NCBI GenBank assembly: GCA_900466575.1
Contig: UBMP01000004.1
Location: 186,001 to 250,000, forward strand
Reading direction: 5' to 3'
DNA from: Hyphomicrobiales bacterium
GTDB taxonomy: Bacteria > Pseudomonadota > Alphaproteobacteria > Rhizobiales > Rhizobiaceae
DNA: 64,000 nt
Shown here: positions 45,798 to 48,504 of the stretch, piece by piece
Numbering within the stretch: position 1 is the stretch's first letter
Layout: the number at the start of each line of letters is the position of its first letter
Made by a program: the position numbers and the translations under genes
Notes under the pieces: generated by a model
Databases searched by the model: none
What the model was told of the DNA's origin: nothing
What the model saw: only the letters and a program-made list of their open reading frames with translations

Positions 45798-46304
45798 TCA
45801 CGCCTTCGGGCAGTCGGTATCCGGGCTGAAGTCCGGGACGCCGCCCTTGACGAAAACCTTCGGGTTCGGGTCATAGGCCGGGCCAACGACGATGGAATTC
45901 TTCGGCAGGATTGTCTCGTCGAGCGATGAGATCACTGTGGTCTCGATTGTCTGGATCTTCTTCTCGTCCGGACCGAAAAGGCTGACGACCACCTTGTAGG
46001 GCTTGTCCTTCACCACGCAGCGCAGCGGCGGGCTTTCCAGCGTCAACTTCTCCCAGAAGGGAAACATCTTCTGCGTGATCTTCAGGGGCTCGCCCCCTGC
46101 CGGGTTTTCAAAGCTTGCTTCCACGTAGCTGCCATCCGGAATCTTGCCTTGGAAACTGAAGGCGAGATTGTAGGTCGCCTTGGAGACTCGATAATTGAAG
46201 ATGAACAGCTTGCCGCTGAGCTTTAACGGCTCCGTCTCGTCACCGCGCTGGCAACCGGTCAGCGCCATGATGGCGGCCAGCGGCAAAATCAGAAGCGTCT
46301 TCAT
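45798..46304 (-). CDS. Putative lipoprotein of unknown family
   Basis: 168-residue lipoprotein. The lipobox LTGC ends at C18, with a short charged region after it. The mature domain has mostly beta-like pattern (KLFIFNYRVSKATYNLAF) and conserved-looking aromatic and proline residues. I do not recognise a family. The start at 46304 gives the signal peptide and overlaps the stop codon of the CGNR gene by four bases (ATGA), so the two form a translationally coupled pair. Confidence 0.78.
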   Translation of the reverse strand: MKTLLILPLAAIMALTGCQRGDETEPLKLSGKLFIFNYRVSKATYNLAFSFQGKIPDGSYVEASFENPAGGEPLKITQKMFPFWEKLTLESPPLRCVVKDKPYKVVVSLFGPDEKKIQTIETTVISSLDETILPKNSIVVGPAYDPNPKVFVKGGVPDFSPDTDCPKA

Positions 46305-46849
46305 GATGCATCCTTCTCCAGTTTCTTTTTCCGATAATGCAGGCGCGCCTTCACGCGGTTGCCGCAGACCGCCATGTCGCACCAGGCGCGGCTCTTGTTC
46401 TTGCTGCGGTCCAGAAACAGCCATTCGCAGTTGGGGCAGATCTTCAGCGCGCCGCCACGCTGCGGCGAGATGAGCCTCAGCGCCGACATCGCTGTCTCGA
46501 AGTCGAGATCGCCTGTCTCGCCAGCCCGAAGCGCTCGCGCAATTTCATCCAGCAGGTCTGCGAGCAGATGCGCCGATGGGCTGCCGAGCGCCTCCGCGCG
46601 GAAATGCCGGTCGATCGCCTCGCGCAGCCGGATCAGTCCTTCGGCGCGTCCGAGCGGCAAGGGTCTGAGATTGCTGTCGGGCCGTTCGGCGCAGAGCCGC
46701 CTCGCAGCCTCCGGAAACGCGTCCAGATTGGCCTTGTCTGCAAATCGGTCGACGGAGTGCGCCGGATCGAAGCGCAGGATCACGCTGTTGGCGACATCCA
46801 GCGCAAGCGCGCCGCCCGAAAAACGGTGAGGGGTCCAGGAGAAGGTCAT
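46301..46849 (-). CDS. CGNR zinc-finger (ABATE-domain) regulator-like protein
   Basis: 182-residue cytosolic protein: an N-terminal ABATE domain (about 8-125) and a C-terminal CGNR zinc finger with Cys138, Cys141, Cys157 and Cys162 (CPNC, then CDMAVCGNR) and a basic end. The family is annotated as putative stress-induced transcription regulators. Its ATG lies 6 bases after a TATAAT box on its own strand, so the mRNA may be leaderless, and a 40-bp perfect palindrome covers that box. It is translated with the lipoprotein gene and divergent from the lone permease gene. Confidence 0.85.
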   Translation of the reverse strand: MTFSWTPHRFSGGALALDVANSVILRFDPAHSVDRFADKANLDAFPEAARRLCAERPDSNLRPLPLGRAEGLIRLREAIDRHFRAEALGSPSAHLLADLLDEIARALRAGETGDLDFETAMSALRLISPQRGGALKICPNCEWLFLDRSKNKSRAWCDMAVCGNRVKARLHYRKKKLEKDAS

Positions 46850-46853
46850 GACG

Positions 46854-46893
46854 ACATTATAACTGGTAAAAACCGTTTTACCAGTTATAATGT
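46854..46893. promoter_or_regulatory. 40-bp palindromic operator with two overlapping divergent promoters
   Basis: Perfect 18-base arms (46854-46871 and 46876-46893) around a 4-base centre, ACCG. Each arm carries a consensus -10 box: TATAAT on the plus strand at 46886-46891 and its mirror on the minus strand at 46856-46861, each with CTGGTA 17 bases upstream as a weak -35. Promoters for the CGNR gene (minus) and the permease gene (plus) therefore overlap inside one palindrome, a strong candidate repressor-binding site. Confidence 0.75.
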
Positions 46894-46907
46894 TGCAGGA
46901 AGGGGAG

Positions 46908-47810
46908 ATGCCTGTGGCCTATATCCTGCAGCAAGCCGTCAACGGCATTCCGCTGGCCGCGCTCTACGCGGTCCTCGCCTTCGCCTATTCCATTGCCTTT
47001 GCCGTGACCCGCCGCGCCGATATCACCATCGGCGCGCTCTTCGCCTTTTCGGGGCAGATCTTCGCATTGTTCTTCTTCATCGCCTGGCAGCGCTATTGGC
47101 TGATTCTGGAACTCTGTCTTGCGATCGGCGCGGTCGCCGCCTTTCTTTACACGGAGGTCGCTGCGACGGTTATTGGCCGGCACGTGCTTCAGCCTCTCGG
47201 TCGCTCCGAGCCGCATGCGGTCATTGTCGGCGGATTTGCGGTAATGATCGTTCTCATGGAAATCGCGCGACTGGCTTCGGAGACGCGTTCGATCTGGCTG
47301 CCGCCGCTTCTGAAGACACCGGTCACGTTTCTCGTCATCGATGGCTTCGCCGTCACGCTGACGCAGATGCAGATACTGAACGTTGCCCTCATGCTGGGCG
47401 CGCTGGCACTGCTTTCCCTTTGGCTCGCGCGCGCAGCGTGGGGACGACGCTGGAAAGCCGTTCGCGACGATCCGCTCGCGGCCGAGCTTTTGGGTGTCGA
47501 TAGCCGCTCCGTCTTCGTTCAGGCCTATGTCGGCGCGGCGCTGATCGCTACCTTCGCAGGCCTCCTGATGACGGCCTATTACGGCACGATGGATTTCGGT
47601 GCGGGGCTCATGTTCGGGCTCAAGGTCGTCATGCTCGGAGCGCTTGGAGGCTATGCCTCACCGTTGAAATCGGCCGCGGGCGGCGCAATCTTTGGCTTTG
47701 CTGAAACGCTGTGGACGGCCTTTGGCCCACTGGCGCTTCGCGACATCGTGATGTTCTCGGCGTTGGTTTACATTCTGGTGATGACGCGGCGCGAGCAATT
47801 GGCGCCCTGA
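46908..47810 (+). CDS. Orphan LivH-type branched-chain amino acid ABC permease
   Basis: 300-residue inner-membrane protein with about eight helices and the LivH pattern: LQQAVNGIPLAALYAVLAFAYS, then KAVRDDPLAAELLGVD, the coupling helix that docks on an ABC ATPase, and KVVMLGALGGYASPL. It would import branched-chain amino acids, urea or similar solutes, but no LivM, LivG, LivF or LivK gene is nearby. The ATG at 46908 follows AGGAAGG; a GTG at 46914 is a second candidate. It is transcribed from the palindromic region shared with the CGNR gene and convergent with ung. Confidence 0.85.
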   Translation: MPVAYILQQAVNGIPLAALYAVLAFAYSIAFAVTRRADITIGALFAFSGQIFALFFFIAWQRYWLILELCLAIGAVAAFLYTEVAATVIGRHVLQPLGRSEPHAVIVGGFAVMIVLMEIARLASETRSIWLPPLLKTPVTFLVIDGFAVTLTQMQILNVALMLGALALLSLWLARAAWGRRWKAVRDDPLAAELLGVDSRSVFVQAYVGAALIATFAGLLMTAYYGTMDFGAGLMFGLKVVMLGALGGYASPLKSAAGGAIFGFAETLWTAFGPLALRDIVMFSALVYILVMTRREQLAP

Positions 47811-47814
47811 TAGG

Positions 47815-48504
47815 TCACACCGTTTCCGGTAGCCGCCAATCGATTTCCTTCATGCCGTGATCGCGCAGGAAGGTATTGGCCTTCGAGAAAGGTCGGCTGC
47901 CAAAGAAGCCGTTATGGGCCGAAAGCGGTGAGGGGTGAGGGGATTTGATGACAAGATGGCGCTTGGCGTCCACGAAGGCCGCTTTCTTCTGTGCGTAAGA
48001 GCCCCAGAGAATGAAGACGACCGGATGCGGCAGCTCGTTGACCTGCCGGATGACGGCGTCGGTGAACTTTTCCCAGCCCTGTCCCTGATGCGAGGCGGCC
48101 TGGCCTCGCTCGACAGTCAGCACGCTGTTGAGCAGGAGCACGCCCTGCTTGGCCCAGCTTTCCAGAAATCCGTGCCGGGGCGGCACGATGCCGAGATCGC
48201 TTTCCATCTCCTTGTAGATGTTGACGAGCGAAGGCGGCGGACGAACGCCCGGCTGCACGGAGAAACACAGCCCGTGAGCCTGCCCGTCACCGTGATAGGG
48301 ATCCTGGCCCAGAATGACGACCTTGACCTTGTCGAGGGGCGTCAGATCCAGCGCGCGGAAATATTCCGAGCCTTTCGGGAAAATCCATTTCCCGGCCTCT
48401 TTCTCGCTTTTCAGGAATTCCTTCAGATGCGCCATGTAGGCGCTGGCGAATTCGCCTGCGAGCGCTGCCTTCCAGCTCTCCTCCAGCCGAATACCCTCAG
48501 TCAT
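47815..48504 (-). CDS. ung: Uracil-DNA glycosylase
   Basis: 229-residue DNA repair enzyme (family 1) that removes uracil arising from cytosine deamination. The water-activating D68 lies in [25 protein letters not shown] carries the catalytic histidine and the Leu/Asn recognition loop, and [10 protein letters not shown] the middle motif. The ATG at 48504 overlaps the moaE stop codon (ATGA), so ung is the last gene of the uvrC-independent pgsA-moaD-moaE-ung run. Confidence 0.95.

Follow-up and report, generated by a model that had tools for sequence, protein, structure and literature searches.

A palindrome between a CGNR zinc-finger gene and a divergent LivH-type permease gene is a probable autoregulatory operator with counterparts across the CGNR family

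Within the 64,000-nucleotide window (the whole stretch of DNA that was analysed), a gene on the reverse strand (46301..46849, -) encodes a putative regulator of 182 aa. The protein combines an N-terminal ABATE domain (PF07336, 28.4 bits against a Pfam cut-off of 24.4) with a CGNR zinc finger (PF11706, 60.1 bits against a cut-off of 24). Its stop codon is overlapped by the start of a gene for a small lipoprotein-like protein of 168 aa (45798..46304, -), identified from its translation, for which neither Pfam nor NCBIfam gave a match. A LivH-type permease with a BPD_transp_2 domain in Pfam is encoded divergently (46914..47810, +). Translation of livH most likely begins at the GTG at 46914, behind a likely ribosome-binding site (GGAAGGGGAG, 46898..46907, +). 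In alignments, the livH start of relatives falls on the same codon. The permease resembles E. coli LivH and other branched-chain amino-acid ABC permeases in its domain and in its best NCBIfam match, which is LivH. However, the 89 bits of that match fall far under the LivH equivalog cut-off of 379 bits, and the usual ABC partners are missing from the scanned surroundings: six further neighbours encode LysE, GST, NDK, UDG, MoaE and a CDP-alcohol phosphatidyltransferase. None of these is an ABC ATPase, a second permease or a binding protein, in agreement with an earlier note on this DNA that had described the permease as standing alone. The same scan of six neighbours revealed no regulator gene, and PADLOC gave no matches for the CGNR, lipoprotein-like and LivH-type proteins.

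A crystal structure led in 2009 to the proposal that CGNR/ABATE proteins regulate transcription (PMC2954205). For the protein concerned, Jann_2411 (PDB 3h0n), a dimer was reported, the finger was considered likely to bind DNA and the ABATE domain possibly to bind a ligand (PMC2954205); the accessible part of that report names no operator or target gene for Jann_2411. The window protein shares both Pfam domains with this family. Its treble-clef finger spans aa 135-175 (46325..46447, -) and includes the helix WCDMAVCGNRVK, in which Met159 occupies the position found to covary with base 5 of the proposed operator (see below). Cys138, Cys141, Cys157 and Cys162, together with GNR 163-165, are invariant across 41 aligned orthologues. 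A monomer model built from these 41 aligned sequences has a mean pLDDT of 83.7, with the zinc finger as its lowest-confidence part (only 51-57 for residues 151-170). Its best PDB match is 3h0n (probability 1.00, E 1.7e-3, TM 0.53), compared with an E of 1.0 for the runner-up, and sequence alone also matched 3h0n, via the finger, at E 0.023. The window protein differs from Jann_2411 in that an operator and a residue/base relation can now be proposed for it.

The region between the divergent genes contains a 40-bp palindrome (46854..46893, no strand), which reads ACATTATAACTGGTAAAA / ACCG / TTTTACCAGTTATAATGT. As the earlier note had described, two perfect 18-nt arms (46854-46871 and 46876-46893) surround a 4-nt centre, ACCG. 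The palindrome encloses a putative operator core, TAAC-N20-GTTA (46860..46887, no strand; more fully TAACTGGTAAAA-N4-TTTTACCAGTTA), of a form common to other CGNR genes, and this is the sole TAAC-N20-GTTA in the window. When up to 3 mismatches were allowed, the inner pattern of the palindrome matched once in the 64-kb window and not at all in 100 dinucleotide shuffles of it. With the same tolerance, the window's own genome (5,138,420 bases, ~5.1 Mb) likewise contains a single site, against no match for the reversed control; this copy number is of the kind expected for the site of a local regulator.

Each arm also carries promoter-like boxes, and here too the description in the earlier note held, with a TATAAT and a CTGGTA 17 bases upstream located on both strands. 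On the CGNR side the -10 box lies at 46856..46861 (-), 6 nt before the CGNR ATG, and the corresponding -35-like CTGGTA at 46879..46884 (-) falls within the livH-side arm. The livH -10 box, read from the sequence, occupies 46886..46891 (+), with its -35-like CTGGTA at 46863..46868 (+) within the CGNR-side arm, so that two divergent promoter-like sequences overlap inside the palindrome. CTGGTA agrees with TTGACA at 3/6 positions. A generic sigma-70 promoter scan of 46000-48000 called no promoter, and it is because of the -10 boxes and their spacing that we refer to promoters here. No Rfam family matched between 45500 and 48000.

The conservation of the palindrome was assessed in the best 80 of 183 relatives which, with the window, make up 81 loci. 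The palindrome precedes the CGNR ATG in all 80 relatives as well as in the window; the earlier note had regarded absence of the element from orthologous intergenic regions as fatal to its reading. Agreement with the 24 specified bases of the core was complete in 13 loci, with 23 bases in 41, 22 in 18, 21 in 7, and 20 and 19 in one locus each. TAACT and GTTA are invariant, and the central four bases vary freely. The -10 bases on the livH side are well kept, as illustrated by the A at position -3 in 70/81 loci.

The position of the core with respect to the start codon is similarly constrained, with a GTTA-to-ATG distance of 9 nt in 29 loci, 10 in 41, 11 in 10 and 12 in a single locus. In the window, the ATG (46849-46847) is separated from the -10 box by 6 bases, too few to accommodate a leader that includes a ribosome-binding site, and the initial A of this codon coincides with the expected +1 position. 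The CGNR mRNA is thus likely to be leaderless, with transcription predicted to start at the ATG. The earlier note had raised this as a possibility, and the 9-12 nt gap between core and ATG in 81/81 loci lends it support.

The same 81 loci bear on whether the element could simply consist of two back-to-back promoters, recognised by RNA polymerase only and symmetric through their shared consensus. A perfect TATAAT does end each arm, at a 17-nt spacing to CTGGTA. Most of the inner bases (CTGGTAAAA/TTTTACCAG), however, are more constant than the middle -10 bases and do not correspond to promoter consensus, and other CGNR genes keep TAAC-N20/21-GTTA far from the start codon (at -115 in L204 and -90 in L273). 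We regard an element made of promoters alone as very improbable, and instead take the palindrome to be a probable binding site of a regulator.

The palindrome appears attached to the regulator gene in particular. In all 80 relatives, livH is divergent from the CGNR gene and the lipoprotein gene lies downstream of the latter. The distance from the livH start to the CGNR ATG is 48-74 nt in 71 loci and 109-174 nt in the other 9, and in these 9/80 loci with a remoter livH start the palindrome stays at the CGNR gene. The close loci are syntenic, with ndk present in 76/80, moaE in 78/80 and ung in 3/80, so shared gene order does little by itself to indicate a functional module. In view of the ndk and moaE counts, we do not argue that the three genes remain linked amid changing neighbours, a point on which the operator proposal does not depend.

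Across the 199 family genomes, livH was detected at E <= 1e-30 in 67, all of which are among the 69 with a close CGNR match; 7 further family genomes gave distant CGNR matches only. Two genomes have the CGNR match only, and one of them (G095) is truncated by its contig end. In the other (G151, locus L265), a gene for a DctQ-type TRAP permease (730-1362, -) replaces livH in the divergent position, and the site, the CGNR gene and the lipoprotein gene are kept. The site is therefore conserved beside the regulator gene irrespective of its other neighbour, both in this locus and in the 9/80 loci above. In a second, more distant set, all three genes were found in 33/35 loci, the exceptions being L265 and L268, a distant paralogue. 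The lipoprotein-like gene is conserved beside the CGNR gene even where livH is missing. A palindrome match at up to 3 mismatches occurred in 80/199 family genomes, many of these at background level as judged by the reversed control. Among the matches listed, 18 sites have 0-1 mismatches, and for 17 of these a CGNR match follows no more than 50 bp downstream (the exception is G065:C104). The livH-CGNR-lipoprotein locus is also present in Sinorhizobium meliloti. One sequence labelled S. meliloti pSymB, CP090106.1 (L360), is 3.7 Mb long and contains ndk, and looks like a chromosome.

We extended the analysis to the wider CGNR family. PF11706 was found in 33/240 genomes in a class search and in 56/398 in a phylum search, and CGNR genes were gathered from these searches, from stretches of those genomes and the family genomes, and from named plasmids. 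Deduplication yielded 253 genes, of which 2 without a usable start were left out; the remaining 251 were reduced to 106 representatives below 60% identity. For distant genes the start codon was assigned by rule, and may be incorrect in some cases. Exact TAAC-Nk-GTTA sites were counted in the -250..+30 regions of these 106 genes for k = 4-39. Three clear peaks were obtained, at k=20 (36 genes), k=21 (18 genes) and k=10 (11 genes), with every other spacing found in 0-3 genes. Shuffled controls had means of 0.1-0.3 with a maximum of 3, and reversed sequences gave 0-2. Taken together, spacings of 19-21 occur in 50/106 genes as compared with 0.53 expected. We refer to the N20/21 arrangement as the long form and to the N10 arrangement, which is one helical turn shorter, as the short form.

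A matrix of the long form, scored with the tested cluster held out, placed 62/106 genes above the 99% shuffle null and 54/106 above the 99.9% null; the largest held-out cluster contains 84/106 genes and was scored by a matrix trained on the other 22. Gene bodies gave 0/106 at both nulls and 2/106 at 95%. The short-form matrix identified 25/106 genes, and was held out by gene and not by cluster, which makes it a weaker test than that of the long form. By matrix scoring, either form is present in 81/106 genes and neither in 25/106. The spacing class follows the protein tree, requiring 3 changes as compared with a minimum of 11 in 100 shuffles (the two genes with both forms were left out of this test). 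Around the family sites, promoter boxes point towards the CGNR gene in 23/50 cases and away from it in 20/50, and thus give no direction.

At least two exact long sites are present in 15/50 genes, and 10/17 distances between neighbouring sites fall at 40-43.5 bp, approximately four helical turns. Such paired long operators, with centres 40-43.5 bp apart, occur at L165, L167, L205, L207, L211, L214, L217, L219, L220 and L278, in contrast to the single shared palindrome of the window.

Six additional CGNR genes were chosen from a protein search, blind to the DNA upstream of them, and four of these have an exact long site. In the case of the S. meliloti gene, an orthologue, this was expected. The others are from Macrococcoides (Bacillota), where the site overlies the annotated start, Deinococcus (Deinococcota), and Caballeronia, which has two long sites 42 bp apart. 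The remaining 2/6, both actinobacterial, have no exact site. Among the representatives, neither form scored above threshold for 5/7 actinobacterial CGNR genes. Three Streptomyces genes (L319-L321) carry GTCACC...GGTGAC/GGTTAC-like variants of the short form, of which only that of L319 passes the short-form threshold; these variants perhaps represent a further recognition class.

The base that follows TAAC, base 5 of the half-site, was found to vary with the recognition helix. For representatives with a CGNR helix, this base is C or T in both half-sites, and it is G for a few proteins with CGSH/CGTH-like helices. Relatives of one protein with a changed helix were fetched by protein similarity alone, giving 31 loci. 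All 19/19 proteins with changed helices (including the query) have G in both half-sites, the 9 CGNR-helix proteins with exact sites all have C or T, and 3 CGNR-helix proteins have no exact site. When all proteins with an exact TAAC...GTTA site are compiled (89 rows, with one gene counted twice as L307/L337), Met in the WC-x-Met position is paired with C or T in 66 rows, and Asp (13), Glu (8), Asn (1) and Ser (1) are paired with G, with 0 exceptions. Proteins that have CGST or CGVK and keep the Met have C, which points to the Met position, more than to the CGNR letters themselves, as the partner of base 5. On the tree the covariation corresponds to only two evolutionary switches, of which one falls on a long branch (L316). 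A test of independent pairs had too few pairs and returned p = 1. The covariation is thus strong as a pattern but weakly replicated across the phylogeny. On balance we lean towards a single recognition code shared by CGNR proteins, in which each finger of the dimer would read TAAC and a base 5 set by the residue that lies two positions beyond the third zinc cysteine (C or T for Met, G for an acidic residue), and in which clades would differ in having the half-sites N20/21 or N10 apart.

These family-wide patterns bear directly on which protein recognises the palindrome. The earlier note had put forward the adjoining CGNR protein as the obvious candidate, and the occurrence of the same kind of site at dissimilar CGNR members does favour it over an unrelated regulator. 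An operator for another regulator encoded elsewhere, for example of GntR, TetR or MarR type, might be suspected on the grounds that the half-sites AACTGGT/ACCAGTT resemble the operators of some GntR-family proteins. The regulator gene that adjoins the site is nonetheless of the ABATE/CGNR type and not of the GntR/FadR type, the palindrome occurs once in the genome, and related sites are found at dissimilar CGNR genes with other neighbours, including genes for an EamA protein (L347-L349), an alpha/beta hydrolase (L326) and an MFS transporter (L361). Site subtype and spacing, moreover, follow the CGNR protein. Recognition by a regulator from elsewhere thus seems quite improbable to us.

We consider it probable that the palindrome is an autoregulatory operator through which the adjoining CGNR protein represses both its own gene and livH. 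The operator function proposed in the earlier note is in keeping with the presence of the element in 80/80 relatives and of related sites before dissimilar family members. The computations show the site and how it is conserved, its link to CGNR genes, its family-wide form and the helix covariation; from these we infer binding, repression, ligand release and the transcription starts as follows. A CGNR dimer would place one treble-clef finger on each TAACTGGTAAA half-site. Because the 28-bp core spans the distance from one -10 box to the other, the bound dimer would keep RNA polymerase off the two overlapping promoters, and the putatively leaderless CGNR-lipoprotein mRNA and livH would be repressed together, as the earlier note had also proposed. 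A ligand of the ABATE domain may then release the repressor, and could plausibly be related to whatever the permease or the lipoprotein handles.

The direction of control might also be the opposite, with the CGNR protein bound to the palindrome as an activator or as a switch between the two promoters. The promoter-like sequences overlap fully and must exclude each other, the one operator sits midway between the -10 boxes, and some regulators activate when their ligand is bound. The site nevertheless covers both core promoters, where a bound protein usually blocks polymerase. Activation or switching is accordingly rated as unlikely, and repression of both genes by the CGNR protein is the arrangement we prefer.

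Such a circuit would be of a familiar kind. Local one-component repressors of the TetR, MarR and GntR style control divergent autoregulated promoters, and the window shares with them a palindromic element in a short divergent intergenic region that lies over both promoter-like sequences, an adjoining transporter gene and a dimeric regulator, the dimer in our case being suggested by the solved relative. The differences lie in the DNA reader, which would be a treble-clef zinc finger in place of a helix-turn-helix, in the TAAC half-sites of CGNR genes at 20/21 or 10 bases apart, and in the regulator mRNA, which appears leaderless in the clade of the window. A literature search that was thin on subscription papers and preprints returned no published CGNR/ABATE operator or DNA site among the matches listed. 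While the type of circuit is ordinary, the DNA-recognition rule for the CGNR zinc-finger family appears to be new. The observation widens from one palindrome to a putative family operator, and the sequence comparisons support the earlier interpretation. If correct, the proposed recognition code would give a widespread family of zinc-finger regulators its first operator code, with targets that could be read from genomes. A concrete operator, two spacing classes and one residue/base relation make the CGNR family testable and its target genes predictable, and draw attention to the uncharacterised livH-CGNR-lipoprotein locus of Rhizobiaceae.

The genes found beside other CGNR family members vary. 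Relatives with a TAACG site are divergent from a gene for an EamA-family transporter in L347-L349, L351, L352 and L355-L357; in L346, also with TAACG, the divergent gene is annotated as 'multidrug transporter', and L353 is an exception to the EamA pattern. An EamA gene also adjoins the CGNR gene in L364, which is actinobacterial and has no exact site. Genes for an epoxide hydrolase, an alpha/beta hydrolase or MFS transporters lie beside the CGNR gene in L322, L323, L324, L326, L327, L328, L361 and L363, and these hydrolase and MFS neighbours suggest local control of uptake, efflux or hydrolysis.
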